The position numbers and the translations under genes are program-made. A stretch of 64,000 nt of DNA, from contig JAJQGJ010000002.1 of NCBI GenBank assembly GCA_021200565.1, positions 1 through 64,000 of the forward strand, read 5' to 3'. Positions 16,190 through 64,000 of this stretch are shown here, in pieces (the stretch's first letter is position 1; every line of letters begins with the position of its first letter). The notes beneath the pieces are model-generated. The model saw only the letters and a list, made by a program, of their open reading frames with translations, did not search any database and was not told the DNA's origin. This DNA is from Oscillospiraceae bacterium (GTDB lineage: Bacteria > Bacillota > Clostridia > Oscillospirales > Ruminococcaceae).

Positions 16190-16198
16190 CTTCTCGGA

Positions 16199-16387: not shown

Positions 16388-16408
16388 CTTCTAACTCAAA
16401 CAACAAGC

Positions 16409-16468
16409 CCAGACGGTTATATCTCACTGCGAAAGCAGTCTGTAGTAACTGTCCGGGCTTCTTTTTGG
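16409..16468. terminator. Terminator between Rpn remnants and excisionase-like gene
   Basis: AAGCCC-A-GAC ... GTC-C-GGGCTT with a long loop containing an inner ACTGC-GAAA-GCAGT hairpin, then CTTTTT on the plus strand. Confidence 0.6.
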
Positions 16469-16476
16469 CTCTAAAT

Positions 16477-17100: not shown

Positions 17101-17428
17101 GGAGATAACCACCTTGTCTTTGTTAGAATATGGCATAAGTAGGTGGTATCTGTCTCTTAAACTGTGCTTTTTCTCTCCAATTTCTGAGGGTATCCTCGCA
17201 AAGCCACTTCTCAAGTGCCTTGCTGTTCTCTCCTAATTCTCTCTTTTTTGCAAAAAATCTCGCTTTTTTAGCCCAAAATCAAGACCTTCGAACTTTCCTT
17301 TATCTAAGCGGTTTTACGGGATTTTCGGAACTTTTTAGCTACGAAAAATCCAGATTTGATGCGGTTTTTAAGCTCTTTTATCTTCTTCTGAAATCTCTTT
17401 ATTTCCTTTAACGTCCGGATTTGATACT
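17101..17428. other. Non-coding region between excisionase-like gene and att site
   Basis: About 330 AT-rich bases without a credible gene. Near-repeats tccagatttgatgc (about 17348) and tccggatttgatac (about 17413) could be integrase arm-type sites flanking the att core; this is weak. The minus-strand leader of the excisionase-like gene occupies the left part. Confidence 0.35.
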
Positions 17429-42738: not shown

Positions 42739-42773
42739 GGTTTCCCATCCTTCCAAAAAATTTTTCAAAACAA

Positions 42774-45829: not shown

Positions 45830-45883
45830 ATGATGAGAGAAGACAACTACAATTATAAAACAATTCTGGAGGAGTTTAAATGA
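45830..45883 (+). CDS. Possible leader peptide coupled to mcrB
   Basis: 17 codons, MMREDNYNYKTILEEFK, preceded by GAAGGTGAT; its TGA overlaps the mcrB ATG (ATGA). The mcrB ribosome site GGAGGAG lies inside it. It may only couple translation; no attenuator hairpin is seen. Confidence 0.4.
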   Translation: MMREDNYNYKTILEEFK

Positions 45884-47922: not shown

Positions 47923-48986
47923 AACAGAATGAACACGTTCTGGTAAAGAACATCTACTATATGCTGGCTTATGCTTTTCAGGCGTTGAAGCAGTCGAGCT
48001 TTGAGAGCGTTGAAACCGAGGAGTTCGACAACGTGCAGAACCTGTTTGCCGCTATTCTCAGCAAAGGCATAGGCGTTCAAGTGAAGCAGGGACTCTATCG
48101 GGAGTATCAGAACAAGTCGGAGAACCTCTCAACCATGCGTGGCAGGATTGATATGCCCGGAACGATAAGGCATAAAATTACCCGCAGGCAAAAGTTAGCC
48201 TGCGAGTATGACGAACTGTCGGAGAACAATCTTCTCAATCAGATTCTTAAAACGACCGTTATGCTTCTATTGAAAAGCGACGAAGTCGAGACAGAATACA
48301 AAGATATTCTCAAAAAAGAGATGCTCTACTTTTCAGGAATAGACCTGATTGAACCGTCTTCAATTCGGTGGGAACGAGTTCGGTTTCACAGAAATAATCA
48401 GAACTATCGGGTTCTCGTGAGCTTGTGCCAGTTTATCCTGCAGGGAATGCTTCTGACGACCGAGCATGGAGAAAACAAGCTCGCATCTTTCATAGACAGC
48501 CAACAGATGTATCATCTGTACGAGAAGTTTATTCTCGAGTATTACAGAAAAGAGATTCCCAAGCTTAACGCTTCTGCATCGCAGATTGATTGGGCACTCG
48601 ATGACGATGGGAAAACGATGCTTCCGAAAATGCAGAGCGATATTATGCTTTCACACGGGGACACTGTGCTGATTATAGACGCAAAGTATTATTCCCGCAC
48701 CATGCAGACACAGTTTGGAACCCGTACATTGCGCTCGCATAACATGTATCAGATTTTTACATATGTCAAAAACAAAGACTCAGAGTTCGGAGACAGACTG
48801 CATACTGTTTCGGGAATGCTTTTGTATGCCCATACCGACGAAGCCATCCAGCCGGAGCAGTCCTACCGGATGAGCGGCAACAGGATTGACGTCAGGACTC
48901 TCGACCTGAATTGCGAGTTTTCAGAGATAAAGAGCAGGCTGAACGGGATAGCGAAAGAGTTCTTTCCGGAGTTGAATATTAAATAA
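47919..48986 (+). CDS. mcrC: McrC nuclease subunit
   Basis: 355 residues. Typical McrC opening KNIYYMLAYAFQAL, a conserved middle RGRIDMPGTIRHKITRRQKL, and the PD-(D/E)XK nuclease core with MQSDIMLSHGDTVLIIDAKYY (Asp ... DAK) near residue 245-265. Forms the type IV restriction complex with the McrB gene immediately upstream, overlapping it by 4 bases. The frame is complete. The gene converges on the channel gene at 49016 with only about 30 bases between and no clear terminator. Confidence 0.92.
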   Translation: MKQNEHVLVKNIYYMLAYAFQALKQSSFESVETEEFDNVQNLFAAILSKGIGVQVKQGLYREYQNKSENLSTMRGRIDMPGTIRHKITRRQKLACEYDELSENNLLNQILKTTVMLLLKSDEVETEYKDILKKEMLYFSGIDLIEPSSIRWERVRFHRNNQNYRVLVSLCQFILQGMLLTTEHGENKLASFIDSQQMYHLYEKFILEYYRKEIPKLNASASQIDWALDDDGKTMLPKMQSDIMLSHGDTVLIIDAKYYSRTMQTQFGTRTLRSHNMYQIFTYVKNKDSEFGDRLHTVSGMLLYAHTDEAIQPEQSYRMSGNRIDVRTLDLNCEFSEIKSRLNGIAKEFFPELNIK

Positions 48987-49015: not shown

Positions 49016-51043
49016 TTAATGCCTGCTATAAACAATCAGCTTGTCTTTTTCTGTAAGCTCGACAGTGATATTATTCTGATTTCCGGTGAACAGAGTTGTG
49101 TCGGAGCTGGAATTGACGTATCCTATCACTATCGCCTTGTTGGAATCCGGCGAAGCGTCATAGACTGCTCTTATGAGCTGTGCAGCTGTACAACGAGGAG
49201 GAAGCTTCCTGAGGAAGGTGCTGACCGGCTTGGTGTAAAGCTCCTTGCTCTCATATGTATCTGCACCAGCTTCGTCATATGTGAGAATATCGCAGTAGTA
49301 TTCGTACAGCGAAACCTTTTCACTTATCTGGGTAACCATCTTACTGATATATCTGTTGCTGATAACAACATTTTTCGCACTGAAATCATGAACTACATCG
49401 TAGTTCTTCGGATTGATAATCTCAACTATAACATCAATAGTGTTGATGTCGAAGTTGGGATTTTTTCTGAGTCTCTCCACGATTATATCCTGAACATAAA
49501 TAAGGTATGTGAGGGCGTTTGAATCGATGTCTTCAGCCGGCACACTGTCGTCCGAGAGGATCAGGATGCTCGTATCTCCTTCATGAGAATCGATATATTC
49601 ATCGATGGCAGAGGTTATTTTATCGTTCTCATAGACCTCAGCCTCTTTCACGGAGCTGACATAGGTATAGTCCCTGTAGTAGTCGTGCTTTTCGAGGCTC
49701 TTTTTGTCGTCAATTACAAGAATATCAACTATTTCCCTTCCGTCTTTACGGTTCCATTCCTCTCTGAAAGCATCAAAGCCGTTCATAATATCCTCGCTCT
49801 TTGAGTTATGTCCGACTATAATTATATTTGTTGGTGCCATCCAGTAATCAAGATTCAGCTCCACTTCAACAGGTTCAGCATCAAAGGATTCAGTTCGGTC
49901 AATATCTTCATCGTAATCGGCAATATAGAACGATTCAGTACCAGTTTTTGTTTTCATTGTCGTGAGCGGAATAGCATGGTAATTCGTGGACAGATAATGC
50001 GACGTTTCGCCTATCTCGTCCCACTTTTCATCATGAGGTCTTGAATAACACTCAGCTCCTCTGTTGGAAAACAGCTCACTGTAAACTGTGTTCAGCTCAG
50101 GCATGATAGAAAACTGGGACAGAATCTGACCAAGAATTTTGTTGACAGGCACAGGTATGATATTGCACTTGCCGAGCTTCTCCTTGTGGTAGATGATTTT
50201 ATCGACAAGCTGCTGAGTCCATTGGTCTTCAATTTCTACGATAATAGTCTGATCATCCCTCGACCTTTCGGAGGAAGTCAGCTCCGCAACCTGAACCAAT
50301 GTCTTGATCGTATTTGAGTTGCCGTGTTCAAGCTGTTCACGCCTCTCGGAATAATCATACTTGCAGACAGAGCTCTGGACACTGCTGCTGAGAATAATGA
50401 TGCTTTTTGCGTCAAGAATCGATATGTCATGCAAGGCTTTTGAGGAGAATGTGTCGCCTTCTCTTACTATTATCGTCAGCTTATTCCTGATTTTCTCCCG
50501 GCTGATGGTATCTGCAATACGATCGGATATATCCCGTTCCACACGTTCAACATTATCATTAACAAGAATAACAATAGTCTCTCTCGTTCCTTCATAAAGC
50601 AAATCGTTGATTATCTCGGAAGCACGTGAATTCCAGTTGAGTATGACAGTGTGCCCGGATATTCTCAATGGTCTGTTGCCTGATTTCGAATTCTCGATAA
50701 AGCTGGATATGGTATTGGTGACATAACCGATTACTGCGCCGGTGAATGTGATCATTCCGACTATTACAATAATTATGCAGGCGATTATAAGACCAACACT
50801 TGCTTCGCCTATGTCGGTTATAACATAGGACACGCAACCGGCGTCGAGAACCATACTTATAGTATAAAACACCGACTGCCAGAAGCCCGACTCCTGCAAA
50901 GAATCCGGTGCCAGACAGGATATTACCACTGCAGAGATTGCAAACCAAAGAACATTAAGCAGCAAAATGCCGAGCAGAATAGCATGCGACGGCTTTTTAG
51001 CCACATATATACTGATGCTTTCCCTGATCTTTTTCAATTTCAT
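49016..51043 (-). CDS. CASTOR/POLLUX-type RCK ion channel
   Basis: 675 residues from ATG 51043 (GGAGGGTG seven bases upstream; an earlier in-frame ATG at 51070 has none). Two to three membrane segments in the first 120 residues with a pore-like re-entrant stretch FWQSVFYTISMVLDAGC between them. Then two RCK/TrkA-N-like domains: HTVILNWNSRASEIINDLL near 130 and NIIIVGHNSKSEDIMNGFDA near 415. The plan matches plant CASTOR/POLLUX and bacterial homologues (calcium or potassium channels). Last gene of the large minus-strand operon, behind a GC-rich hairpin. Confidence 0.82.
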   Translation of the reverse strand: MKLKKIRESISIYVAKKPSHAILLGILLLNVLWFAISAVVISCLAPDSLQESGFWQSVFYTISMVLDAGCVSYVITDIGEASVGLIIACIIIVIVGMITFTGAVIGYVTNTISSFIENSKSGNRPLRISGHTVILNWNSRASEIINDLLYEGTRETIVILVNDNVERVERDISDRIADTISREKIRNKLTIIVREGDTFSSKALHDISILDAKSIIILSSSVQSSVCKYDYSERREQLEHGNSNTIKTLVQVAELTSSERSRDDQTIIVEIEDQWTQQLVDKIIYHKEKLGKCNIIPVPVNKILGQILSQFSIMPELNTVYSELFSNRGAECYSRPHDEKWDEIGETSHYLSTNYHAIPLTTMKTKTGTESFYIADYDEDIDRTESFDAEPVEVELNLDYWMAPTNIIIVGHNSKSEDIMNGFDAFREEWNRKDGREIVDILVIDDKKSLEKHDYYRDYTYVSSVKEAEVYENDKITSAIDEYIDSHEGDTSILILSDDSVPAEDIDSNALTYLIYVQDIIVERLRKNPNFDINTIDVIVEIINPKNYDVVHDFSAKNVVISNRYISKMVTQISEKVSLYEYYCDILTYDEAGADTYESKELYTKPVSTFLRKLPPRCTAAQLIRAVYDASPDSNKAIVIGYVNSSSDTTLFTGNQNNITVELTEKDKLIVYSRH

Positions 51044-51070
51044 ACAACACCCTCCAAAATCCACACACAA

Positions 51071-51101
51071 GCGGCGGCATCATTCTGACAGAAACCGCCG
51101 C
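51071..51101. promoter_or_regulatory. Hairpin between small helical gene and channel gene
   Basis: Perfect GCGGCGG (51071-51077)/CCGCCGC (51095-51101) stem. On the plus strand it is followed by AGTTTTT, giving a terminator for anything coming from mcrBC. On the minus strand it lacks a T-run and may reduce or stabilise the downstream channel message. Confidence 0.55.
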
Positions 51102-51166
51102 AGTTTTTATCTGATTATCCCAACTGCTGCCCGCAAAACGCCTCAGAGCAATTATTTCAGCGCTTT

Positions 51167-51454
51167 TCAATCATCCTCGGCCCAGATTGCATCTTCTTTC
51201 CTATGATGATCAATTTCCGCCTGCAGCTCTTCGGCTAATTTACCGGCTCGCTCAGCTATTTCCGCATACTTCACGGTACATGCAGTGATTTTCTTGTTGA
51301 TTTCTTCGACAGCCTGGTCACCGGAAACCAGAGCACCAGCACAAACGCCTGCAAGCGTCTGGAGCTCCGACTGTACAGAGTACACGTTGCTTGCGAACGC
51401 ATACAAAGCCTGCATCATAGCCTGGTAATTCTGTTCATTATATACATCTGCCAT
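51167..51454 (-). CDS. Small helical-hairpin protein (ESAT-6-sized), first of pair
   Basis: 95 residues, almost all helix: two long amphipathic segments (NYQAMMQALYAFASNVYSVQ and VEEINKKITACTVKYAEIAE) separated near residue 45 by SGD. No WXG motif is present, so membership of the WXG100 family is not established. Size, helical hairpin and neighbourhood with an FtsK-type translocase make it a candidate substrate or structural partner analogous to type VII secretion. GGGGAGTG before ATG. 13 bases downstream of the 101-residue gene. Confidence 0.65.
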   Translation of the reverse strand: MADVYNEQNYQAMMQALYAFASNVYSVQSELQTLAGVCAGALVSGDQAVEEINKKITACTVKYAEIAERAGKLAEELQAEIDHHRKEDAIWAEDD

Positions 51455-51467
51455 ACAATCACTCCCC

Positions 51468-51773
51468 TTAACGGCTTCTGCCTTTAGAGTTGCTGAAGGC
51501 GTTCTGACGACCTTTGCGGACTATAGCAGCTCTCTGCAGCTTCAGAACGAGCTTCTTGACAGGATAAGACGCTTCGGCTTCTTCTTCTCCCATATCCTCA
51601 AGAATCTTCAATATCTCAGCCGAGTATCTCCCGAGCCCTGATTTGTTTTCTTCGTAAACATCAAGCAGCGTTTGCGTTTCCTGATGAAGACGTCCAGAAA
51701 GCAGCGTGAGGTTATCCGCCATGTTCTCCAACGCTTTGATTCCTTCATCAGATACTGTTACCGGACCTGGCAT
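51468..51773 (-). CDS. Small helical-hairpin protein (ESAT-6-sized), second of pair
   Basis: 101 residues with helices at about 8-40 (EGIKALENMADNLTLLSGRL) and 45-85, ending in a basic, Ser-rich tail (RKGRQNAFSNSKGRSR). Like its neighbour it lacks a WXG signature but has the length and helical hairpin of such proteins. The turn holds NKSGLGRYS. AAAGGAG nine bases before the ATG. Follows the FtsK-type gene by 43 bases and lies 13 bases from the 95-residue gene, so a heterodimeric pair is plausible. Function not known. Confidence 0.65.
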   Translation of the reverse strand: MPGPVTVSDEGIKALENMADNLTLLSGRLHQETQTLLDVYEENKSGLGRYSAEILKILEDMGEEEAEASYPVKKLVLKLQRAAIVRKGRQNAFSNSKGRSR

Positions 51774-51816
51774 CTTGAATTGCTCCTTTCAAAATAATTA
51801 TAGATTTCCAATGTTT

Positions 51817-54800
51817 CTAATTTACCGCTTCTCCCTTTTCATCAATATCCCATCCATCCCATGAGATACCGTTATGGATAAACGGGCGAAGTGAGTACTG
51901 CTCCAGACTATCTGTGTATTGGCATATATGCTCCGGCAAGCCTGATGCAGCTTTTGATGAAAACAGCATCCTTGAATCGTCTGCAGAAATCTGGAAGGCA
52001 ATTTTATGCCTGAACAATTCAGCCTGAAGACCGGAGCTTCTGAGATCTGACAGATCATTCAGACAGATCATAAAGTGATACCCTAATCTGCTTCCCTGCT
52101 TTATGATGTACCTGAAATCCTCCAGAGCGTTGTAGACACCAGGCTTTTCAGGTTCAGAATCTGATTTCTCTTGAGAAACCTCTGGAAGCTCTTCTGATTC
52201 TTCCGCAGCGGTCACTCTGCCTGTCTTCCTGCAATATTCCTGATGCAAGCGTTCTATCTCAGCAGTCATATACTCGACACTTCTGTCTTCTGCAAGCCAT
52301 TGCTCTTCAAGCTCGTCAATGTGATACATCTCTTCGAATTCCCGCTGAGCATCATCCACCTCTGCCACCTGCTGCAGCTCCTCTTCGGTTTTAGCGGTTA
52401 CCGAAGACAAATCGCCGACAGCAGCCTTCACAGCAGCATCCTGCTTCAATTTCTCAGGCTCAACCAGTTCAAAATCACTGCAAATCTGATCCATTCCCAG
52501 AAGGACAATCAGCTCGCTGCTGGTGACCCGGGAGATTATTTTTTCCTTCATCTCTGAGATGGCGTTGCAGACATCCTCCATGCCTTCACGGACATCGAAC
52601 CTTGCAAAATGACTGTCCTTATACGCTTTGAACATAGAGTTCTTGCTGTAAGCCCAGACATGCACCGTAGAGCCCTGCTCACTGAAAAGCTCCATCGTTG
52701 TCATGACGACAGACATTCCGCAGGCTAGCTCGGAGTTTCTTGAGATCATAAGGATATTCTCACGGGATTCATTTGAAACGGTTGCATACTTGACGCTGAC
52801 CATTCTTCTTGGTGAACCAAGTGCGAGTATCGTGTCGCCCTCGACGATGTCGGAGGCGTTTTCACGGCGGTATTCAGCTATGCCAGCCATAATACGAGCT
52901 GTGTTGAAAGCCTTATAGCTGTTTCCGTCGACAATTACTGGGTGCTTATCGACATATGTGCTGACATCATCCGGATTATACTCGCTTATGTCAACAGGAC
53001 GCATACGCCTGATTCTTTCTATAAGCTTACGTTGTGGCTGAAGTGCCTCCTCACCGTTGCCCTTGAAATACATGACCTGCAGCTTTTTGACATAAACGTT
53101 CTCTCCATCACGATACTTTGCCAGAGCATAATGCGGAGGAAGAGCGTTCATCCAGTTTCTGACCTGATCAGTTTTCATTGTGGATGAGAGCTGCAGGGTT
53201 TCGTCTATCTCGCTATAAGAATTCTTCATGGCAATTCTTGTCTGGATCTGATCCTTGGCAGTGGTTGTCAGTCCACGTATTCCACTGGTGAAGGTCTGGC
53301 TCGAAAAGATGAACTTGATTCCGAGAGCCCGTCCTTTTGCCAGAAGATTCTGGAGGCGAAGCTTATAGGTTTCGCTGTCAGCAACAGCCTGGGACATGAT
53401 AGAGAACTCGTCAAGTATGACGAATATTATCGGCATATAGGTGTCCTTCGGGACATTTTCAACCTTTTTCATATCACGATGCTTCATAAAGAACCTCTGA
53501 CGCTCCATCATCTTTTCGGTCAGCTGATCAAGAAGGTCATATACCAGCTCAGGAGACTCATCAAGAAGTATATACTTTACATGTGGAGGCATCGGATCCA
53601 TATACTGTGCGAATTCGGACATCTTGAAGTCGGCAAGCCAGAGCTCTACATCATCGGGGTGATAGTCTCTCAGTATGCCGGTTATGAGGGTGTGTATCAG
53701 CGTCGACTTTCCGGAACCAGAGGCTCCCATAAGGTAGCAAGCAAAATTCTCGTTGTCAAACGAAATGCTGTTCACTCCGTCCTTGCCGTCAACACCGTAT
53801 GGAAGAACTATGCTCTTGCGCCCTCTTTCGTAGTTTGGGGCGTTTTCCATATCAACTCTTCTGACATATTCCGTGCCGAGAGTATTCTGAGAGTTATCGT
53901 AGCTTCTCACTTCGCTCACAAACGAATCGCTGAGCTCCTGGCGCAGTTCATACCACCTGAAGAAGTGGTTCGTTCCGTCATCCTGCCTGACAACCTCGTT
54001 CTGCTTCGTCATCTGGATTCTGAATAATCCACTTCCAACATCTGAGGACACATCGTCCCGGGAATCATCTCTTGATGCCGAGAACTGCGTATCTGCAAGA
54101 ATCAGCGTGATTCCATAGCGTTCATAATTAAGGAGAATTCTCCTGATGAGGTCTTTTGCCTCAGAAGAGAAAGATGTCGGATAGCCGATGAGAACGAGTA
54201 TAGTCCTCACAATCCTCTCCTCCGGCTTGACCTGCGAATTATATTCCTGCACTGAATCTACAAACTCGAGAGTTTCGTCTATGTCAGAAAATCCTGAAAC
54301 TATCTGCCTGAGTGCATCGGCTATCTGTTCAGCACTCTTTGGAATAGGCTCTATAAGTATGCTCTCCTCGAGAGGTCTCAGAGCTCCGAGTGCAGTGTTG
54401 TTGAAATGGACGGCATCAAGAAGACAAACCTTTCTTGAGCCAATCGGTGACTGCGAGGCAATGTCGAGGATATAATTCTGTATCCCTCGATAAAGCTTCT
54501 TTTCCTTTGCAGGAGAGCATCCTACAGACAGAACCACCTCACTTTGCAGACTGTGCTCGAGCGGAAGCAAAACTCTGCTTCCCTTGACGTCGTAATACTC
54601 ACCGAGCTTAGCCTTTGCTAAGTACTTCAGCTCTTCGATAATCGGGAACGACTTTGCATATTGTCCGATTCCTGCGGCATAAGCTTCATCAGAAGCAGTT
54701 ACAACCCTCTGCAAAGACGATGAGTCGGTATGTCCTGAGTGATGAGAAGCAACCAAATGAGAAAACTGCTCAAATTCCTGGCTTTCAAGAACCATGAGGC

Positions 54801-55281
54801 ACTCATTCACGAGCTGATTTTTCAGCGCATCGATGGCTTTTTGCTCCTGGTCATCGAGCTTAACCTCTCCCGAGGTAAGCTCCGCCAGGGTTTTCTCAAA
54901 CTCTTCCTTTTTGAGCTTGAGAAACATCTCGTTGCACTTAGCCTGGATATAGATTCTCTGAGCGTATGGGTCATCAGTTCCCTCAGGATCTATCATCATA
55001 GCCCAGTTTCTCAGACGGTTGAAGTTGAGCTCACGTGGAGTTATGGTGAGAATATTTTTGCTGGTGAGGTGCTTTTCAGCTATATGGCGAAAGTAGTCGA
55101 CCTTCTCCTCGTACTCCTCGATTCTCTTAAGCTGCTCCTGAAGATTATCGATTCGCTTCTGCTTGGTGATTTCGTCCTGCTCGCCGGCTAAAATAACCTG
55201 CTTTCCAACGTTTGCGTAGCGAGCTGCTATGCTGTCGAGCTTAGCAAATAAAGAGGTATAAAGTTCGTTAATCGTCAGCAT
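51817..55281 (-). CDS. FtsK/SpoIIIE (HerA)-type translocase with a degenerate second ATPase domain
   Basis: 1154 residues from ATG 55281 (GGAAGT eight bases upstream; ATG 55287 is possible). Residues 1-200 are coiled coil; at about 480-760 a complete FtsK motor: YLMGASGSGKSTLIHTLITG near 515, PIIFVILDEFSIMSQAV near 620, FIFSSQTFTSGIRGLTTTAK. From about 830 a second FtsK-like fold has lost its P-loop (LMISRNSELACGMSVVM) but keeps LIVLLGMDQI and a C-terminal AFQISADDSRMLFSSKAA. Tandem active and degenerate motors recall EssC/EccC of type VII secretion. No membrane segment of its own, but it overlaps the gene for a 1427-residue membrane protein by 7 bases. Confidence 0.88.
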   Translation of the reverse strand: MLTINELYTSLFAKLDSIAARYANVGKQVILAGEQDEITKQKRIDNLQEQLKRIEEYEEKVDYFRHIAEKHLTSKNILTITPRELNFNRLRNWAMMIDPEGTDDPYAQRIYIQAKCNEMFLKLKKEEFEKTLAELTSGEVKLDDQEQKAIDALKNQLVNECLMVLESQEFEQFSHLVASHHSGHTDSSSLQRVVTASDEAYAAGIGQYAKSFPIIEELKYLAKAKLGEYYDVKGSRVLLPLEHSLQSEVVLSVGCSPAKEKKLYRGIQNYILDIASQSPIGSRKVCLLDAVHFNNTALGALRPLEESILIEPIPKSAEQIADALRQIVSGFSDIDETLEFVDSVQEYNSQVKPEERIVRTILVLIGYPTSFSSEAKDLIRRILLNYERYGITLILADTQFSASRDDSRDDVSSDVGSGLFRIQMTKQNEVVRQDDGTNHFFRWYELRQELSDSFVSEVRSYDNSQNTLGTEYVRRVDMENAPNYERGRKSIVLPYGVDGKDGVNSISFDNENFACYLMGASGSGKSTLIHTLITGILRDYHPDDVELWLADFKMSEFAQYMDPMPPHVKYILLDESPELVYDLLDQLTEKMMERQRFFMKHRDMKKVENVPKDTYMPIIFVILDEFSIMSQAVADSETYKLRLQNLLAKGRALGIKFIFSSQTFTSGIRGLTTTAKDQIQTRIAMKNSYSEIDETLQLSSTMKTDQVRNWMNALPPHYALAKYRDGENVYVKKLQVMYFKGNGEEALQPQRKLIERIRRMRPVDISEYNPDDVSTYVDKHPVIVDGNSYKAFNTARIMAGIAEYRRENASDIVEGDTILALGSPRRMVSVKYATVSNESRENILMISRNSELACGMSVVMTTMELFSEQGSTVHVWAYSKNSMFKAYKDSHFARFDVREGMEDVCNAISEMKEKIISRVTSSELIVLLGMDQICSDFELVEPEKLKQDAAVKAAVGDLSSVTAKTEEELQQVAEVDDAQREFEEMYHIDELEEQWLAEDRSVEYMTAEIERLHQEYCRKTGRVTAAEESEELPEVSQEKSDSEPEKPGVYNALEDFRYIIKQGSRLGYHFMICLNDLSDLRSSGLQAELFRHKIAFQISADDSRMLFSSKAASGLPEHICQYTDSLEQYSLRPFIHNGISWDGWDIDEKGEAVN

Positions 55282-58200
55282 CTGCATCTACTTCCTCTCG
55301 GGCACAATGCTTTTGAAGCAGCACGCACATCCTCTATTTCAAGCGGCGGGAACGAAGCAAACGGTGTGAATGTCGGATCATCTCCGTTGCGCTCAATGCC
55401 GTATCTGTCACGATACAGCCGGAATCCAACACCATACTCGTCGTTTCTTGAGAGCATAATCGCCTCCTGCTTCTCGGCATAAGATGTTTCGCCCATTGAG
55501 TAAAGCATCTGGATAGCAGACCAGACTGCCATTCCCTCATAGACTATAAGGCGTGCTCTTGCGGTGCATTCTCTTCTTGGCATGCTATAATATCTGCGGA
55601 TCTTATTGTCATCCCAGTTTATATACTGCCAGATGTGAGTGAGCTCGTGCGTGATCGTATCGACAGAAGCAAGCCTGGGGCTTCCGTTTTCAATCAGCAG
55701 ACTGTACTTTCCGCCTTTATGCTGCGCAAATCCGAGCACTCTTCCGGCAAACTGAGCAGAAGGACGGAAGATCATGCCTGACTGCTTGCCTATCGTGCGG
55801 GCATCAGCCGTCCTGACAGTTATGCTGACAGGAATGTGGATGCCATAAGTGTCCTCCATCATCGCTTCTGTGTGGTTGAACAGCTCTCTGAATTCTGCAA
55901 CGGTATTGATAGCAGTCATAGAGCAATCGTTGCAGCGGATTCTGCCGTCAGCCAGTCTGTCATAGCTGACGCCAGTCAGCGGAACGCCGCAGAAATCGCA
56001 GCAGTTGACAGCATCCATGTCAAGCATATCACCGTCAAATGCCTCACGCTTTCTTGCCTTGGCGAGATCGCCGTTGCTCCAGCCACGCACTGTCAGGTAG
56101 CTGCTGACATCTTCTATCGCAAGGCGGGAGTCAATCTCGGCAAATCCGAATTTAAGGAAGCATTCCTTCTGGTAGCGTGTAGGCTCTATCGGGAGAAGAA
56201 TATCCAGGTCATCAGGGACCCCGTCTGTACCAAACAGGTCTTCACCGTCAGTGTGAAGAGCAATCTGCTCCTCAGCAGGCGTTACTATGTCGGAGGTGTC
56301 CTGATTTGCCTTTTCTTCAGAGCCTGAATCCTCAGCTTCAGACTTCTCATCCTCTATCGGAGCATCTTCGCCTGAAGAGCTCGTCTCAACGATTGACTCC
56401 TCTTCCGGCGTATCCTTCTTTTCATCCTCCTCAAACGGGGATTCATCAGCTTCTTTACCCTTGGCTTCGGGTTTCTGGTCATCAGATGGCTTCTTTTCAG
56501 GAGTGTCCTTCTTCTTTTTTCCGCCGTCCTTCTTTTCAGGCTCATCTTCGCCGTGTCTGCCTAAAATACGGTTGATAAGGCGATTGAAGCGTGCACGCAA
56601 GCTAATACGCTTCTTCTCCTTCTCATCGGGAATTTCCACCTCCGGAACAGGGTCCTTGGCTGGCGGCTCCTTCATCTTCTCAAAATGCCAGTTGAGATAA
56701 TCGGACATAATCTCAAAGAAGTGAATAAGGTTATTTTCAACCGCCTCCAATAGTCCAAGATCCATGTCGCTGTCTTCAACGACATAAATCATGTCATCCT
56801 CTATATCACCGTCAATGCCGTAGTTGAACTTTCTTAAGATGCCTTCGACATCATCAGGATATGGCGACAAAACTCCGAGATACATCCAGGAATCAGGGAA
56901 CACAGTGCGGAAAATCTCGTTCAGAAGCATGCTGATGGTGAACCTGACGCTGGCGTCGGTGTCAGGAAGCCTGATTTTCAGAACAGTCTTGTTTTTATAG
57001 CTGCGGTTGAAGGCTTTTATGTTTGGATCGCCTGAAAGATCAATTTCCTGAGACGTTCTGAGATCATGATTATCGAGCATCTGAAGATAACCAGTTGTAT
57101 CTACACTGAAGCTTCTGCGGACAAACGAAACCTCGACATCCGTAATCCTCTTGGAAGAAATCAGTTCCTCTCCGCTCTGGAAATTGTAATGCCTTATCTG
57201 CTTATAATAAACCCTACGGGTGTAGGAATCAGCCGCCCGATGAAGAATGCACCCTATCTGAGGCGAAACCGAGCTGACTCTGTAGTATTTGCCGTTGTAG
57301 GTGATGTACTGTCCCGGCATGACCGTCTGGGTAATGTGTCCGAACAGCTTGGCATCAATCCGCTGAGTGTCAAACTTCTCATCCTCGACAACAAAGAATG
57401 CATTCTTGAGTGTTGAAGCAAAGTTATCCTCAAATACCTGCTTCGAGATTGAATAGCAGGTCGACTGAATCGGCACAAGGTCATCATTAAGGCTCTGATG
57501 GGTTTGCGCGGTGATAATTGTATCGGCTACAAACGTATACTTGTATATCAGGTCTGACAAAATCTTGTATGCGTCATCGACTTCATAGCCAAGCATCTTC
57601 AGCTCATGGATTATGTAGCTTTCCTCCACCGGTGAGCAAGCCATCATCAGAATGATTTTGATTACAGTGTTTCTTTCAGTCTTCGCATAGTACGGAGCGA
57701 CAGCAGAAATTGCTTTCGGGTCGCTCATAAACAGCTGCCGGTTATATCTCATATAGTCTCTCAGCAGATAATTCTCGGAGATTACATTTACAAACGACTG
57801 TGACTCGCCTCTTGAAAGATAGGTTCTGAACATAGAGAACATATTGCAGAACTCATCTTCAACAATAAGAAATTCCTCTTTTTTGACTTCACTCCCCCAA
57901 AGATTTGAAGAGAATGAAATATGTTCATCGAGGCTCTTTTGCTGGCTTGGAAGATTTGAGTACTTGCATATCTGAGGATAGTACTGTCCCGCTATCCAGT
58001 GGATGTCCCTCACAGGCGCCTTTTCAGCACCATACCAGGTCACATGGGGTATCTGATTCTTTACTGCGACAGCTGCAATCTCCGTTCCATTGCCAAGATA
58101 ATGGGTTTGCTTGTCGAAGAGCTTCTGGCGAAGCAAGTCTCCGGCAGCTGCCCATCCGATATATGTCGACGAATTGCGGTTGACAGGAGCGGCGACAACG

Positions 58201-59558
58201 TTCGTCAGATTGATCTGCAAAACATGCGACATGACGTCAACCAAACCATCAACATCACGATCACAGATACAGCATGTGGGCTTGGATGCCTTGTTGAACT
58301 TTTCAGCAATGATCCCCAAACCCGACTGAGAGGTTGCAAGCATCCTTGAAGGCTCGATGAAAATGACAAACCCGGTGTTCCCGAAGAACTCGCTGTTCGC
58401 ATTGAGAACCTCATCATCATAAATCTGCGAAAAGGACATTATGCCGACTTCGCACTCAGGAGTGTTCCTGTCGAGCATTGCAGTTCTGAAGAGCGAACGT
58501 GTACGGCTGTACTTCTTGAGGATTCCACAAACCCAGTCGGAAATATCCGAGGCTATATCCCCTCTTCCGACGATAATCAGGCACTTTTTATCATTGATAA
58601 GGCTGTTTACAATCGGCAACAAGAGATAATCGCTCAGGTCTCTGTAAAAAGGATTAAAAATTACGGAGCTTTCGCCGTGCAAAAGGGCGTTGGTTGCTGA
58701 AACCAGGTCAACGTCAAACAGACCATTCTTCTTTTTGAGCGAAGAAAAGTAGCTTCCGACAATTCGTTCTGTTTCATCCTCAGAGCCTTCAAGCCTGCGT
58801 ATTGCTTCGGTAGCTCCAACCTTTCCCGAATAACTGTTGTCGGTGTGTGAAACCAAAATTGCCGACGGGAACAGATCTTCATAAATCTTCCGGAGCTTGT
58901 AGTAAACGCCGACACGTGAAGACCTGATTCCCTCGCCACCGACATCATAAAGATATTCTGCCTTTGTATAGCCGTTCAAAAAATTATATATTTCTGTTAC
59001 AACTATAAGCGCACCAATCGGGAAAGCCTTCACCCACCATCCGGACTCCTCGCTGAAAGAAACCGACAGTATGAAAACTGCAGCACAAGCAACGGTTATA
59101 ATCCATGAGAGGACGGAAAACATAGATCTGAGATTCCTGAATCTGTCCTTCAGAAACCACAGCTTATAGTCCTCGTCATACTCATACCAGCTGCCACTTG
59201 TAAGCTCAATCTGCTCATTCTTCTTCAATGCCGACTTCACAATCGGCATCATAATGAGCTTGATCACAAGGAAAACAAGCAGTATTACAATATTGACTAC
59301 AATCACCGAAGAGCTCGAAGCCACTTCAGTTCCAGCTTCAGGGAGCTGCTCATAAAAGGATGAAACTGTCTCGCTCCCGGCGTATTTATCATAGAAGACG
59401 TATCCCGCAATTATTCCCGCAATGCCAATAAAAGGTGATACGTATGTTATCGGAATCTGCCGCATGCGAAAATCTCTTTTTATATTGATTTTCCTGAGCA
59501 AAAGCGCCGACATCAGTGCCGCTACTAAAGCAAGAGCTATCTTAATTATAGTTGACAT
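55275..59558 (-). CDS. Large membrane protein with zinc ribbon and HExxH metallopeptidase-like tail
   Basis: 1427 residues, unrecognised as a whole. About five membrane segments in the first 200 residues; a soluble alpha/beta region at about 300-900 (KKCLIIVGRGDIASDISDWV; FVIFIEPSRML recalls a degenerate ATPase strand); a ~120-residue Lys/Glu/Asp-rich linker at about 960-1085; Cys4 ribbon CDFCGVPL...CNDCS at about 1185-1211; and THELTHIWQYINWDD (HELTH at 1304-1308) with a downstream EGMAVW motif as in zincin peptidases. Overlaps the 654-residue gene by 17 bases upstream and the FtsK gene by 7. Predicted roles: membrane core of the apparatus, with a peptidase domain on the far or near side. 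Confidence 0.7.
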   Translation of the reverse strand: MSTIIKIALALVAALMSALLLRKINIKRDFRMRQIPITYVSPFIGIAGIIAGYVFYDKYAGSETVSSFYEQLPEAGTEVASSSSVIVVNIVILLVFLVIKLIMMPIVKSALKKNEQIELTSGSWYEYDEDYKLWFLKDRFRNLRSMFSVLSWIITVACAAVFILSVSFSEESGWWVKAFPIGALIVVTEIYNFLNGYTKAEYLYDVGGEGIRSSRVGVYYKLRKIYEDLFPSAILVSHTDNSYSGKVGATEAIRRLEGSEDETERIVGSYFSSLKKKNGLFDVDLVSATNALLHGESSVIFNPFYRDLSDYLLLPIVNSLINDKKCLIIVGRGDIASDISDWVCGILKKYSRTRSLFRTAMLDRNTPECEVGIMSFSQIYDDEVLNANSEFFGNTGFVIFIEPSRMLATSQSGLGIIAEKFNKASKPTCCICDRDVDGLVDVMSHVLQINLTNVVAAPVNRNSSTYIGWAAAGDLLRQKLFDKQTHYLGNGTEIAAVAVKNQIPHVTWYGAEKAPVRDIHWIAGQYYPQICKYSNLPSQQKSLDEHISFSSNLWGSEVKKEEFLIVEDEFCNMFSMFRTYLSRGESQSFVNVISENYLLRDYMRYNRQLFMSDPKAISAVAPYYAKTERNTVIKIILMMACSPVEESYIIHELKMLGYEVDDAYKILSDLIYKYTFVADTIITAQTHQSLNDDLVPIQSTCYSISKQVFEDNFASTLKNAFFVVEDEKFDTQRIDAKLFGHITQTVMPGQYITYNGKYYRVSSVSPQIGCILHRAADSYTRRVYYKQIRHYNFQSGEELISSKRITDVEVSFVRRSFSVDTTGYLQMLDNHDLRTSQEIDLSGDPNIKAFNRSYKNKTVLKIRLPDTDASVRFTISMLLNEIFRTVFPDSWMYLGVLSPYPDDVEGILRKFNYGIDGDIEDDMIYVVEDSDMDLGLLEAVENNLIHFFEIMSDYLNWHFEKMKEPPAKDPVPEVEIPDEKEKKRISLRARFNRLINRILGRHGEDEPEKKDGGKKKKDTPEKKPSDDQKPEAKGKEADESPFEEDEKKDTPEEESIVETSSSGEDAPIEDEKSEAEDSGSEEKANQDTSDIVTPAEEQIALHTDGEDLFGTDGVPDDLDILLPIEPTRYQKECFLKFGFAEIDSRLAIEDVSSYLTVRGWSNGDLAKARKREAFDGDMLDMDAVNCCDFCGVPLTGVSYDRLADGRIRCNDCSMTAINTVAEFRELFNHTEAMMEDTYGIHIPVSITVRTADARTIGKQSGMIFRPSAQFAGRVLGFAQHKGGKYSLLIENGSPRLASVDTITHELTHIWQYINWDDNKIRRYYSMPRRECTARARLIVYEGMAVWSAIQMLYSMGETSYAEKQEAIMLSRNDEYGVGFRLYRDRYGIERNGDDPTFTPFASFPPLEIEDVRAASKALCPRGSRCRC

Positions 59559-61506
59559 CGTTATACGTCTCCTCTCGCTCTATCTTAAGCTTATCAACGA
59601 AGCCAAACGGCGACTTGATATACAGTCCACCATCATTCAGAGGAACACGGCTTTCCGCTTCCTCATCCAGGGAATACAGCCTGTCATAATCAACTGCATC
59701 GTGAATGTCCTCGGCATATTCCATAATATCCGTTGACTGCAGGTCAACATTGATATGCATAGCGGTTCTCCAGAGGTCAATCTTTTCTAAGAACAGTTCT
59801 ATCGCCTTGAGATGCTTCTGAATGAAGAAGTAGGCTGTATCCTTTCTGGCACGGTTTTCACCCATTATTCTAAGGTAGGACCAGCCACGCATATGCGATG
59901 CAATACTGCTGAAGAAATCTGAGTATGTCGTTGCGTTGTGGGACAGCTCGCTGAGAACCGTAGAAAATGCCTGCTGATATTTTTTTGCAACCCCGATAAA
60001 CTTTGCTCTCTGTGTAAGAAGAACTGCAGCTCCACCAACTGCTATTGCAGCTGCTGTCAGTGCAATGACAAGACCCGTCTTGAGAGGAGATGGAGACAGT
60101 ATAAACCAAGGCAGCAAGCAGATTGCAAATGCCAGGCATGACAATGCTATCGCAAAGGCAGCCTGTCTGCCGGTGATTCTTTCAACTATTTTCTGCCTCA
60201 CATTATTATCAGCTTCATCAAGCTCCTCATCGATATTTGACAATCCCTCCGGAAGACCTTCCTGCTCGGTGAATATGTCATGATACACCGAGTCGAGTGA
60301 ATTTCTCATGTCCTCTTCCTGATATTCAGTGAGCTGTTCTACCTCCGGCTTCATGTATTCGCATTTGTCCCGGAGTCTTCCCGCTGCCTGGTCAAGCGTA
60401 CGGTCAACGCTCTTTGTAAGCGTACGGAGCTCTCTTCGGGAAGCGTCGGTATACTGCTTCCAGTTGGTGAAGTCATCAGAGCCTATGCCGCCTGTAAGAC
60501 CATACTCGGAGCTATTGAAGCTTATCGAAGAAGCCTGAGGCAGCTGGAACGAAACCGGAACGTCGACAGAATAGTCGGGTATCTCAGTGACGACATCATC
60601 GTCCTTTTTCTCATCCTCAACAAGGCTCTTGCTGAGCCAGTGCTTCGCTATATTCAGCTTGTTCACGGCTTTCTGAAGGCTCATAGCCAGAGCTTTCTCG
60701 TTGATTACAATATCAAGGTTATACAGCCTGTGTGCCTGAAGAGTATCGTTATCTGTATTGTTTCTGGCAAGAAGCAGGACAGCGGTCCAGAGCTTGAACA
60801 TGTCCTTCTGCTTTCGGATAACCCCTTTTTCCTCAACATCAAACGTCAGGAAACGGCAATTATGAGGATACATATTCCGCTGCCAGAAGTCTGAGCTGTC
60901 CGCCTCGGTGTGAACCGCCCAGGAGGAGCGCATCTGGATATACTCATCCTTTGCGACTGATTTTCTTCTTGCTTTGATGATGATAATTTCTGTCGGGGGA
61001 ACTCCGTCAAACGAATGCGTTTCACACCATTCGGCATGTGCACGCCTCTCTTCGGACACTTCCTCATTCTCCATGAGCTTGTATTTCATCTGAGGAACCT
61101 TGTCTTCACGCCTGTCGATAGACGGTGTGAACTGCGGCACAGGTGCCGGAAGTCCACCAAGAAGGTGCACAAGCCTGATGAGAGGAATTTCGCTGTCCTT
61201 TATCATTCCATCAACGACATCGTAGCCCTCTCTCGTGGCATTCTCAAGGTAGTCAAACGGATTTATAGCGGTTGCCGGGTGCTTTGTGTCCTTAGGTTCT
61301 GGCTCTGAACAGACGATGATTGCCCTCCACTCTTTTTTCGAGCTAATCAGGTCATAGAGCTCAGGAACAGAAGTATCAAGTGTCGTTCCAGGCTCAGACC
61401 AGAGGCAGGCGTCAAGGAGTCCCGCATCTATCGATTCAGAAAAAAGAGGGTAAAACTGCTGTAAACAGTCATAGGTCTGCTTTGACTGAATAAGAACTGT
61501 ATACAT
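59542..61506 (-). CDS. 654-residue membrane protein of the FtsK operon
   Basis: 654 residues, unrecognised. The N-terminal ~120 residues look like an alpha/beta (Rossmann or vWA-like) domain (MYTVLIQSKQTYDCLQQFY, IIVCSEPEPKDTK). Two membrane helices at about 450-505 (AAFAIALSCLAFAICLLPWF and LVIALTAAAIAVGGAAVLL), flanked by coiled-coil, and a soluble C-terminus. GAGGGTTGACG before the ATG. Overlaps the 1427-residue gene by 17 bases, so translation is coupled. Probably a membrane partner of the translocase; the function is not inferred further. Confidence 0.65.
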   Translation of the reverse strand: MYTVLIQSKQTYDCLQQFYPLFSESIDAGLLDACLWSEPGTTLDTSVPELYDLISSKKEWRAIIVCSEPEPKDTKHPATAINPFDYLENATREGYDVVDGMIKDSEIPLIRLVHLLGGLPAPVPQFTPSIDRREDKVPQMKYKLMENEEVSEERRAHAEWCETHSFDGVPPTEIIIIKARRKSVAKDEYIQMRSSWAVHTEADSSDFWQRNMYPHNCRFLTFDVEEKGVIRKQKDMFKLWTAVLLLARNNTDNDTLQAHRLYNLDIVINEKALAMSLQKAVNKLNIAKHWLSKSLVEDEKKDDDVVTEIPDYSVDVPVSFQLPQASSISFNSSEYGLTGGIGSDDFTNWKQYTDASRRELRTLTKSVDRTLDQAAGRLRDKCEYMKPEVEQLTEYQEEDMRNSLDSVYHDIFTEQEGLPEGLSNIDEELDEADNNVRQKIVERITGRQAAFAIALSCLAFAICLLPWFILSPSPLKTGLVIALTAAAIAVGGAAVLLTQRAKFIGVAKKYQQAFSTVLSELSHNATTYSDFFSSIASHMRGWSYLRIMGENRARKDTAYFFIQKHLKAIELFLEKIDLWRTAMHINVDLQSTDIMEYAEDIHDAVDYDRLYSLDEEAESRVPLNDGGLYIKSPFGFVDKLKIEREETYNDVNYN

Positions 61507-61549
61507 AACGTCAACCCTCTTTCTTCATTTCTGATATATTCTGTATCAT

Positions 61550-64000
61550 TTATCTCTTGAGGCTTCTCACAGTTTCCTGGGTGGCGACGGAAGCCTTATG
61601 GAATCCAAGCTCATCCAGCTCATCTGCAACAGACTTGCAGATATAAGTGAACAGTGAATCCTCGAAGACATTCTCCAGACCGTCCCTCTCAGCAGTTGCA
61701 GTCATGTTCCTGATAAACAAATCAAACTGACTGCGCAACAGTTTGCTGTAAGCCTCGGCAAATTCCTTCTTGTTGACAAATCTTGCAACGTAAGCCTTGA
61801 TTTCGCTGAAGATGGTTTCAAGCAGGCTTATCATATTCTCCTCGAAGTAAAGCTCAGATGGAACCGAGTGCTTCATGAGTATCGGCAGCGCAAAGATACT
61901 GCGAACGGCATCCTTGTCCTCCATCTCGTACTCATCAATACGGTATTGACCGAGCATTTCGAACAGGAAGCTCTCCTCGAGTGGCACCTTGCGATAAAGG
62001 TCTCTGTCCACACGGGCGTTGAATTTCTTGCGGACAACCTCAACCAGCTCAGGATAGATTGTGAATGAATCAAGAACCTCATAAAGATGATCGCATGGTG
62101 TGCCGTTGGAAACAACGAGCCTGTTGTCGCTATCCTCTCCGCTGAGACCGAGCGCCTTTCTGTCAGGTCTGTAAACACTCGTCGTCTCGTTTACCCTTTC
62201 GAAATTGACATACTTTCCAAGCATCGCCCAGAAGAACGCTGCATATATCTCATCCTCCTGCTTCTTCTGCTCCTTTTCATCAAGTTCAGGAAGCTTGGAG
62301 ATGGCATGCCAGAGTCTGTCGATATGCGGAGTGATAGCCTTGCTCTTCTGAGATTCCGGGTGAATCTGCCTTACCAGCTCGTGGTACGCTTTATAGTACT
62401 CTCCGCCCGGTCTGTCGTAGGTCTCAGCCTCCTTGGGAGGAGCAAACTTGCTTAAGTCATTGACTCTCAGGTCATAGACCGACTGGTAGAAGAGAATTGT
62501 ATTTCTGTCGATACTGTCATCATCCACGCCGCCTCTGTCCTTGAGGTTTGCCGAAACAAACCCGGCACGACCTGGGATTCTCTCATCTGAAAGCTCAGGA
62601 TTATAGGCGCAGGCAGGAATGACTCTCGGCTCCTTGCCGACTGGCGATTCGATAAACGGCTTGGCGAGGATTTCGGTGCTTTCGATGATATGCTTGGCAT
62701 AGAACTCCTGCTCAACAAGATCCAGAGCTATGTCAGGTCTCTTGACAACAGCTTCCTTTTCAAGAGCCGAAATGATGTCCATGTTGACTAAGGAATCATA
62801 CTGCCTTACAATCTCCTTCTCCAGGAATCCGACAACAGTGTTCTTGAAGAGGTCTGTGAAATATCTGTCTGAGCTTGGCTTTTTCTCCGAGAGAGCGTAT
62901 TCCCTGACCCTCAGATAGATTTCACTGCTGAGGTCTGACGGCAGATCAAGACTGCTGCCGTCGTTTATTGCTTCGTTTGAAAGCTCTCTCAAGCATTCTC
63001 TGTCTGCACAGACATAACGGAGTGCAACGCCGGGTCTGGGATCATACTTCGCTTCAAGCTCTGCAATCTCTCTGTCGGTGCTGCTTATGCTTCTGCCCAG
63101 GACGTCATAGAAATCGTGGAACGAATCACAGAGAGCTTTGACGAAATTAATTGCGCTGTTATACACCTTGTAGCTGACATATGCCTCCCAGTATTCCTTA
63201 GTCTTGGAATATAGGGTTCCGAACTTGCCGGTAAGGTTTGCCCTGACCTCAGCAATGGCAGAATGGTGGAAAAGTCTGGCTATGCCTTCTTCATTAAGAT
63301 GTGAAGCCTCAAAATACTCGTCCTGCGTCTCCACTTCCTCTGTATCCGGCAGGTCAAATGTCTTCTTCTCAAAATCAGCCCAATATGCCGTGATATTATC
63401 TACCTTGATCTTCTCTTCAGCTTCCCTGACTCTGAGATTTGACAGAACGTTATACAGGAAGTACCTAACCGCATTCGGATGAATAAAGCTGTCTTCATTT
63501 CCGTTCTGACGAAGCCAGTATTCGATTCTGAACTTTTCTCTCGTTCTGGTATAGTCAGATGACTCCTTGAAAAGGGTGTACTCGATGTTGTTGGAAAGTG
63601 AATTTGTCACCTTTATTGTTGCAGTCTTGAAACCGAGCAGCTGAGCATACCACGCAGTGAACGCCTCGACATCAGCATTGTTTTCACGTGCAGCAGAAGA
63701 CTTTGCGTTTACGTCCTCGATAAGATCCTTCAGCTTGTCCATCTGCAAAGAAATCTGATCGCCGATATAGCCATCAAGCTCGGAAATATAATTCATCCAG
63801 CTGAGAGACTTCTCTACATAGCCGTTGGGATCATGCTCGATGCAGAGATCACGTATTGCAGCCTCGAACGGAAGATGCTCAGCCTGTCCACGATTTATGG
63901 TATCGACATAATCTTCGCCTCTGTCAATGCTCTCGACCTGGTAGCCCTTGCGGCGTCTGTCTCTGTTCTCCCTGTCCTTTTCGTGGAATTTACGGTCCAC
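61550..64000 (-). CDS. Very large helical protein, start beyond the window
   Basis: At least 816 residues, open to the right edge; the start codon may lie outside. Mostly helical and charged, with opening KFHEKDRENRDRRRKGYQVE, and without signal peptide, membrane segment or P-loop in the visible part. Large bacterial tubulin-like (Tubulin_2) proteins sometimes have such long helical C-terminal regions and occur with FtsK genes; that is a guess from memory, not shown by this sequence. It is upstream in the operon, 43 bases before the 654-residue gene. Confidence 0.6.
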   Translation of the reverse strand: MDRKFHEKDRENRDRRRKGYQVESIDRGEDYVDTINRGQAEHLPFEAAIRDLCIEHDPNGYVEKSLSWMNYISELDGYIGDQISLQMDKLKDLIEDVNAKSSAARENNADVEAFTAWYAQLLGFKTATIKVTNSLSNNIEYTLFKESSDYTRTREKFRIEYWLRQNGNEDSFIHPNAVRYFLYNVLSNLRVREAEEKIKVDNITAYWADFEKKTFDLPDTEEVETQDEYFEASHLNEEGIARLFHHSAIAEVRANLTGKFGTLYSKTKEYWEAYVSYKVYNSAINFVKALCDSFHDFYDVLGRSISSTDREIAELEAKYDPRPGVALRYVCADRECLRELSNEAINDGSSLDLPSDLSSEIYLRVREYALSEKKPSSDRYFTDLFKNTVVGFLEKEIVRQYDSLVNMDIISALEKEAVVKRPDIALDLVEQEFYAKHIIESTEILAKPFIESPVGKEPRVIPACAYNPELSDERIPGRAGFVSANLKDRGGVDDDSIDRNTILFYQSVYDLRVNDLSKFAPPKEAETYDRPGGEYYKAYHELVRQIHPESQKSKAITPHIDRLWHAISKLPELDEKEQKKQEDEIYAAFFWAMLGKYVNFERVNETTSVYRPDRKALGLSGEDSDNRLVVSNGTPCDHLYEVLDSFTIYPELVEVVRKKFNARVDRDLYRKVPLEESFLFEMLGQYRIDEYEMEDKDAVRSIFALPILMKHSVPSELYFEENMISLLETIFSEIKAYVARFVNKKEFAEAYSKLLRSQFDLFIRNMTATAERDGLENVFEDSLFTYICKSVADELDELGFHKASVATQETVRSLKR

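Follow-up and report, generated by a model that had tools for sequence, protein, structure and literature searches.

A putative modular type VII-like toxin export operon joining an EssC-like motor to a tubulin-family and vWA core in an Oscillospiraceae bacterium

Introduction

What does an operon do that places an FtsK-family ATPase and two small helical proteins behind a tubulin-family protein, a vWA protein and two membrane proteins? The question is raised by an eight-gene operon in an Oscillospiraceae bacterium (assembly GCA_021200565.1). The stretch of DNA analysed here, called the window, comprises positions 1-64000 of the 330,994-base contig JAJQGJ010000002.1, and the sequence right of position 64000 was added. 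An earlier note on this DNA had described its rightmost genes as a type VII-like operon and a possible new export, channel or contact-dependent system. Judged from sequence comparisons and predicted folds, the operon probably belongs to a modular type VII-like toxin export system with fusions made by frameshifting. The EssC-like motor and an ESAT-6-like predicted fold bear out the type VII part of that description, but the note had foreseen neither the vWA/tubulin half of this operon nor the occurrence of its core without a motor.

The genes are transcribed in the order vWA, Tubulin_2, P654, P1427, EssC-like ATPase, S101, S95 and RCK-type channel (Table 1). Relatives were collected by a pattern scan of named genomes, which gave seven loci, and by profile searches of other genomes, which gave further loci. 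Nine genomes have the window-type motor module together with the two small genes, namely the window genome and those of L003, L004, L005, L006, L008, L064, L071 and L072.

Results

The motor is a relative of EssC

The best NCBIfam matches of the motor are EccCa, EssC and EccCb, and because its scores fall well short of the equivalog cut-offs (for EssC, 61 of 778 bits), we regard it as a relative and not an orthologue of EssC. A profile of the motor family retrieved six distinct sequences from PDB, of which four are named EccC, EccC5 or YukB, one FtsK/SpoIIIE and one uncharacterized; two of the chains found, 4nh0 and 4lya, are presumably EccC structures. The tandem FtsK domains described earlier were recovered in part: one is detected by Pfam (residues 491-614, E 7e-19) and is flanked by degenerate ATPase domains recognized by eye, but only one Walker A motif is intact. 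One Walker A is likewise intact in each of the six complete motors (6/6), and a second Walker A pattern match in the L004 motor was read as falling within a linker. The N-terminal region has a coiled-coil look by eye, and Pfam gave no match to an FHA domain in the motor.

In PADLOC, the FtsK region of the motor matches mad8 (E 1e-14) and SspH (E 1.6e-13), which was taken as a shared ATPase domain. None of 189 pattern matches in viral contigs was a motor relative. Phage records (44) and plasmid records (62) match the motor, none covering over 80% of it, and the 20 phage and 20 plasmid matches listed fall on features of the FtsK, EccC, AAA or DUF87 type, on hypothetical proteins or on sites without annotation.

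S101 has a predicted WXG100-like hairpin fold

Profiles built without the window rank S101 (E 1.2e-10) and S95 (E 5e-8) first among 514 open reading frames (ORFs); because exactly these two come first, they are not chance ORFs. An AlphaFold2 (AF2) model of the L008 S101, with the window S101 in the alignment, consists of two long helices joined at a conserved Leu-Gly hinge (predicted local distance difference test, pLDDT, 88.4). The 17 best Foldseek matches of this model are all Bacillus anthracis EsxB, and lower matches include EsxA of Staphylococcus aureus and Geobacillus, CFP10/ESAT-6 and GBS1074, among unrelated helical proteins. Pfam WXG100 was matched on one relative, at no better than E 0.025. 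S101 has no WXG motif and neither has S95, as the earlier note had seen. The size and context of S95 suggest that it is Lap/WXG100-like. A search of PDB with the S101 profile returned 98 sequences with E-values up to 1, the best a spike HR1 mimic (4.7e-5), together with chemoreceptors, apolipoproteins and designed bundles; these were rejected as coiled-coil chance matches.

Toxin domains follow S101 in the -1 frame in relatives

Toxin genes near homologous loci, which the earlier note had proposed to look for, are present behind S101 in the relatives. In all eight non-window module genomes (8/8), the frame -1 to S101 is open past the S101 stop, for 178 codons in L003, 204 in L004, 294 in L005, 249 in L008, 179 in L064, 186 in L071 and 235 in L072, and for 76 codons in L006, where it meets the contig end. 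A Gly/Ala/Ser-rich linker comes first and is followed by a known toxin domain in six of the eight loci: Gln_amidase in L003, L064 and L071 (E 9e-9 to 2.5e-8), ADPrib_exo_Tox in L005 (E 5e-28) and L072 (E 2e-29), and Endonuclea_NS_2 in L004 (E 8e-24). The frame of L008 encodes an HExxH-containing protein of no accepted family. No LXG model matched the operon proteins or the toxin frames. Moreover, L008 and L064 each carry a further S101 copy, as an in-frame fusion with a C-terminal domain that has no accepted family.

A canonical slippery heptamer, GGGAAAA or GGGAAAC, lies directly before the S101 stop in 7/8 relatives, and the toxins are apparently attached to S101 by -1 ribosomal frameshifting. 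L071 and L072 illustrate how such an arrangement may exchange its cargo: their S101 proteins are 93% identical, the first 75 nt of the linker are 85% identical with 7 of 10 substitutions at third positions of the -1 frame, and identity is then about 51-55%, where the toxin type switches.

The toxin frames might instead be separate genes with their own starts, the slippery motif occurring by chance. A GTG or TTG before codon 54 of the -1 frame in 5/8 loci would fit such genes. In L003, L071 and L072, however, the first ATG, GTG or TTG of the -1 frame falls at codon 67, 101 and 145, respectively, inside the toxin domain, and the short -1 stretch before the S101 stop has no such codon either. Chance occurrence of the motif was gauged in 319 non-overlapping ORFs of at least 100 aa from the loci and the window: seven have any XXXYYYZ heptamer before the stop and five have GGGAAAH, these five being three S101 genes and two TIR-like paralogues (the remaining S101 genes are outside the 319 because they are shorter or masked by longer ORFs). 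The TIR-like genes, with GGGAAAT before the stop, were rejected as frameshift sites and taken as a control, their -1 frame being closed. Separate toxin genes thus seem very improbable to us.

Small genes downstream of the toxins resemble immunity genes

An all-against-all comparison covered ten small genes located 3' of the toxin frames in L003, L004, L005, L064, L071 and L072. The genes behind the three Gln_amidase frames proved to be alike (E 4e-14 to 7e-28), as did those directly behind the two ADP-ribosyltransferase frames (E 1e-5), and the best remaining match among the ten has an E-value of 0.028. From this pairing with toxin type we infer that the downstream genes are immunity-like. A constant N-terminus, an exchangeable toxin and a cognate immunity-like gene would make up the polymorphic-toxin pattern, which the sequences show in the relatives only.

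The core also occurs apart from the motor

The order Tubulin_2-P654-P1427-ATPase-small pair is kept in the nine module genomes as far as the contigs reach. L007 and L009 were excluded from the frameshift counts since their motors end mid-gene and no small pair is visible; in both (L007 9875-11299; L009 9980-10567), the motor stops midway and unrelated genes follow, by rearrangement or assembly error. P654 was found in 2/398 genomes of the phylum and 13/295 genomes of the order, the window genome being counted in both.

The core of vWA, Tubulin_2, P654 and P1427 is present in 12 other genomes of the same order. The earlier note had held that homologous operons lacking the small proteins would speak against it, and such loci exist in part: seven of the 12 show no FtsK-like gene in the stretch fetched. 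Two of these seven, L037 and L038, have about 1.7 and 3.2 kb left downstream, and among the 12 loci L033, L036, L040 and L041 end at or within about 350 bases of a contig end. Because these seven loci show no FtsK-like neighbour, the role of the core need not be export, and because the core also occurs apart from the motor, neither P654 nor P1427 counts as a type VII part in its own right. It is the motor module that looks like the add-on.

L031 alone among the 12 core loci precedes an EssC cluster. In G685, a genome of the window genome's family, the core is directly followed by a 1525-aa EssC (TIGR03928, E 5e-226, 753 bits, cut-off 778), then by a YukD-like protein (E 0.021, below the cut-off) and a WXG100 protein (E 1.3e-10); the cluster also has a second WXG100-like protein (E 4e-5, below the cut-off) and, farther on, a Mbeg1-like protein (E 8e-26) with weak lipase likeness. 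In G069, an EssC gene and a YukD gene share the strand of the core and are located upstream of it, no more than about 15 kb away.

Motor and core might be two unrelated units that share one operon, with the motor module alone performing export. The frequent occurrence of the core without a visible motor agrees with this, as does G716, where a motor and S95- and S101-like genes have no core in the 19.9 kb fetched. On the other hand, the gene order is kept in nine genomes and genes overlap in the window, G685 has another motor, an EssC with FtsK domains, behind the same core, and in G1038 an EssC-like motor stands with another Tubulin_2/vWA cluster. We therefore consider two unrelated units quite improbable.

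The G716 module (L058 11247-15576) adjoins a 567-aa protein that is by eye a serine recombinase, and resembles a mobile solo module. A genome from the family to which that of L008 belongs encodes two Tubulin_2 proteins together with a vWA protein and an EssC-like motor (L059 8690-14278; L060 5031-11099), a second and different joining of tubulin/vWA genes with an EssC-like motor.

Canonical type VII components are scarce

The earlier note recognized no EssB, YukD or EsaA relatives. YukD is indeed missing from the window genome, and among the nine window-type genomes none has a match above the cut-off (0/9), with one weak match in G687 (E 0.037); G685 and G069 have one each above the cut-off, that of G685 on contig C14 and its core on C10. 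EsaA and EssA gave no NCBIfam match in the seven operon proteins, the genomes not having been searched for them. No match to a kinase, a PPM phosphatase, an FHA domain or a YukD-like protein was obtained in the operon proteins with Pfam, or with NCBIfam for seven of them.

Core proteins and the RCK-type channel

Beyond the window edge the operon continues: the 816-aa open ORF encodes the C-terminal portion of a 1165-aa protein starting at contig position 65047, which carries a Tubulin_2 domain at its N-terminus (PF13809, E 1.4e-53). Farther 5', an eighth gene encodes the vWA protein, which is hydrophobic at its N-terminus, contains a vWA domain (E 5e-6) and has a single hydrophobic segment in its C-terminal part. 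Within the window, the seven close or overlapping minus-strand ORFs were confirmed. The AF2 model of P654 (pLDDT 76) has no significant match in PDB; an alpha-pore-forming toxin fold was considered and rejected, as the best match (E 0.019, query TM-score about 0.15) was read as a chance similarity of long helices.

P1427 has four N-terminal hydrophobic segments and a C-terminal metallopeptidase-like domain with the motif HELTHIWQ; by eye it also has a P-loop-like region without Walker A and CxxC zinc-binding-like motifs. The HExxH domain noted earlier is present in 18 of 20 examined loci with a P1427-type protein, L036 and L040 missing it because contig ends cut them. Two P1427 homologues of 1823 and 1930 aa (L042 5857-11328; L043 8542-14334) have a transglutaminase-like domain behind HExxH (E 1.8e-5 and 0.01).

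The CASTOR/POLLUX and RCK matches of the last gene lie below the Pfam cut-offs, both in the window (E 0.044 for CASTOR/POLLUX, 0.013 for RCK) and in its L005 homologue (E 1.3e-4 and 0.0017). An in-frame ATG nine codons after the TTG is the likelier start. By profile, the window kind of RCK gene occurs in 3/9 module genomes (window, L005 and L064) and also in L037 and L043, core loci without a visible motor. Two membrane proteins had been counted earlier. By hydropathy the window has three, with four segments in P1427, two in P654 and two in the RCK-type protein.

Table 1. Positions of the operon genes, of neighbouring genes and of rows of TIR-like genes in other loci
Feature	Position	Strand	Basis or remark
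RCK-type channel-like protein	49016..51070	-	684 aa from TTG; 2 hydrophobic segments
S95, 95-aa small partner protein	51167..51454	-	window-free profile
S101, 101-aa WXG100-like hairpin protein	51468..51773	-	window-free profile; AF2 hairpin of L008 homologue
EssC-like FtsK-family ATPase, 1156 aa	51817..55287	-	Pfam, NCBIfam, hydropathy
P1427, polytopic HExxH protein, 1427 aa	55275..59558	-	motif, hydropathy
P654, conserved, two hydrophobic segments, 654 aa	59542..61506	-	alignment, hydropathy, AF2
Tubulin_2 protein, C-terminal 816 aa in window	61550..64000	-	full gene contig 61550-65047, 1165 aa
vWA protein, 827 aa	contig 65051-67534, outside window		Pfam
McrB (EVE domain) and McrC	window 45880-48986	+	convergent with operon
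YgjP metallopeptidase and type I restriction hsdR/S/M genes	L002 6750-14676 (contig 67749-75675)		hsdR/S/M by eye; just upstream of vWA
1580-aa protein	window 38026-42768	-	BspA-type leucine-rich repeats (E 1e-127)
TIR-like rows	L071 7708-10109; L072 18413-20000; L073 27-3482; L077 6367-8729		by eye
TIR-like row	L008 16064-21014		Pfam for 16064-17155, rest by eye

A setting resembling a defence island

The operon is located in a defence-like island, with McrBC on one side and a YgjP metallopeptidase gene and type I restriction-like genes on the other; a BspA-type repeat protein is encoded farther left. Rows of TIR-like genes stand beside toxin or core loci of relatives, with TrkA/RCK-like genes nearby. 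On an Allomeiothermus plasmid (L075 10366-16767), genes for a vWA protein, a Tubulin_2 protein and a 686-aa protein lie near brxL, helicase and methyltransferase genes.

The main rival to export is an intracellular conflict (anti-phage) system, in which the vWA/tubulin core would sense invasion and release toxins, the channel and TIR proteins inside the cell, while the ATPase and the WXG-like proteins would only hold the toxin until a peptidase frees it. It ranks first among the alternatives because the core frequently occurs with no motor in sight, conflict systems with tubulin and vWA proteins are already known and TIR-like genes are nearby. The position of the operon between McrBC and a restriction-modification cluster assigned to type I by eye would suit such a role, as would the vWA-Tubulin_2 pair near brxL, a TIR-domain gene (Pfam) and further TIR-like or channel-like genes (by eye) downstream in L008 and L071-L073, and the similar tubulin/vWA conflict systems described in part of PMC7159879. 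In contrast, exported polymorphic toxins agree better with the toxin-matched immunity-like genes and with the exchange of cassettes behind a constant fold. The WXG100-like fold, the kinship with EssC, the vWA domain behind an N-terminal hydrophobic segment, and the EssC/WXG100 cluster adjoining the same core likewise speak for export, and an intracellular conflict system appears unlikely to us.

Discussion

A model of toxin export

We propose that a modular type VII-like system exports toxins that are fused to S101 by frameshifting. In this model, a soluble ATPase hexamer would dock on the core membrane proteins, recognize the S101/S95 pair and drive S101, and toxin-carrying S101, through the membrane. 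The vWA protein would act outside the cell, the tubulin-like protein may organize or gate the assembly, and the channel could have an effector or regulatory role. A -1 frameshift at the S101 3' end, in eight of the nine genomes, would yield much free S101 and little S101-linker-toxin, and an immunity-like gene lies next to the toxin in several genomes. The window copy would be the same machine without a visible toxin.

A bolder version, which we put forward tentatively and with some doubt, is a distinct secretion machine whose soluble EssC-like motor is surrounded not by the whole type VII membrane complex but, in its place, by a tubulin-family cytoskeletal protein, a surface protein with a vWA domain and two membrane proteins. 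Frameshifting would then set the toxin load of each cell as mostly free WXG100-like protein plus a fixed small share of fusion, giving one constant secretion signal for any toxin cassette behind the slip site.

Several observations weigh against toxin export by this system. As regards the machine, no transmembrane helix was detected by hydropathy in the four motors checked (4/4), EssB was not found in the 11 genomes searched (0/11 at E 0.001, with the Bacillus subtilis control positive), in agreement with the earlier note, and an FtsK-like gene was not seen in the fetched stretch at 7/12 other core loci. Core genomes are also just weakly richer in near-full-length EssC: among 80 genomes, with the window genome set apart, an EssC of over 700 bits is encoded in 3/12 other core genomes (one of the three just below the cut-off) and in 5/67 without the core, an enrichment that is not significant (Fisher p 0.10). 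As regards S101, its Foldseek E-values are weak (best 0.036, none at 0.001 or below), the window S101 shares 21% identity with the L008 S101, and the S101/S95 pair is reversed in the window versus the relatives. As regards frameshifting, L003 has GGCAAAT instead of a canonical heptamer, the early GTG or TTG codons in 5/8 loci stand at codon 7 in L064, 22 in L004, 24 in L005, 33 in L008 and 53 in L006, and the excess of third-position substitutions is absent in two of three linker comparisons. A conserved RNA hairpin after the slip site was also sought and rejected, the structure being inconsistent over the eight loci (z -2.65 to +0.74). Finally, the window operon has no toxin behind S101. No slippery site is present at the 3' end of the window S101, the RCK gene follows the small pair within about 100 bases, and, with E-values up to 1, the window genome yields a single S101-like gene. 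Either the window copy has lost its toxin or its cargo is unrelated to the S101 profile.

If the frameshifting does occur, it would offer a simple means of putting exchangeable toxins behind one export signal while fixing their dose. It could also make such toxins easy to overlook, because in some of them no standard start codon precedes the toxin domain. The system also offers a direct test of the role of a Tubulin_2 protein.

Comparison with known systems

Canonical and extended type VII secretion systems, T7SSb and T7SSc-T7SSj as presented in parts of PMC11217815, share with the operon and its relatives an EssC-type ATPase and a WXG100-like protein, as well as toxins accompanied by immunity genes and small helical partners. 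In contrast, the operon described here lacks EssB, YukD is missing from the window genome, and the motor has neither an FHA match nor a transmembrane segment. The terms 'tubulin' and 'FtsZ' are absent from the main text of PMC11217815. The LXG toxins covered there resemble the toxins of the relatives in having a helical N-terminal domain, a variable C-terminal toxin, an immunity gene and small helical partners. Here, however, LXG is not matched, the N-terminal domain is about 100 aa long, and the toxin is joined apparently by frameshifting in most loci.

The GAP1-N2 GTPase-centric systems, as described in part of PMC7159879, likewise have a tubulin-domain protein with a long C-terminus and a vWA protein with membrane segments. 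No zinc-ribbon GTPase or GAP1 was matched by Pfam in the operon, the existence of a Pfam GAP1 model being unchecked, and the passages of PMC7159879 on these systems mention no WXG100 proteins.

The motor module resembles solo EssC/WXG100 modules. An EssC-like ATPase with two WXG100 proteins is reported in extended Type III-A CoCoNuTs in the relevant passages of PMC11090510, and 'mobile versions of T7SS' in those of PMC3482391. As in these accounts, only the middle ATPase domain is intact, an N-terminal transmembrane segment is missing and two WXG100-size proteins are present. The WxG motif is absent from one protein of a published solo module and from both proteins here. Those passages contain no toxin domains, immunity-like genes or -1 frameshift of the kind seen in the relatives, and a CoCoNuT or TerY context is lacking here, the adjoining McrBC genes standing apart on the plus strand as a pair that includes an EVE domain. 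A joining of core and motor, toxin cassettes behind the motor, the frameshift and a tubulin-bearing type VII secretion system were not found in the open-licence literature among the matches listed, which does not prove their absence, whereas the motor/WXG100 module and the tubulin/vWA clusters are each already in print. Solo modules have been published as predicted secretion systems whose motor is without the usual membrane part, according to the passages of PMC11090510 that treat them. Here, such modules are joined to the vWA/Tubulin_2/P654/P1427 core, a conserved membrane, tubulin and vWA assemblage, and come with toxin and immunity-like cassettes.
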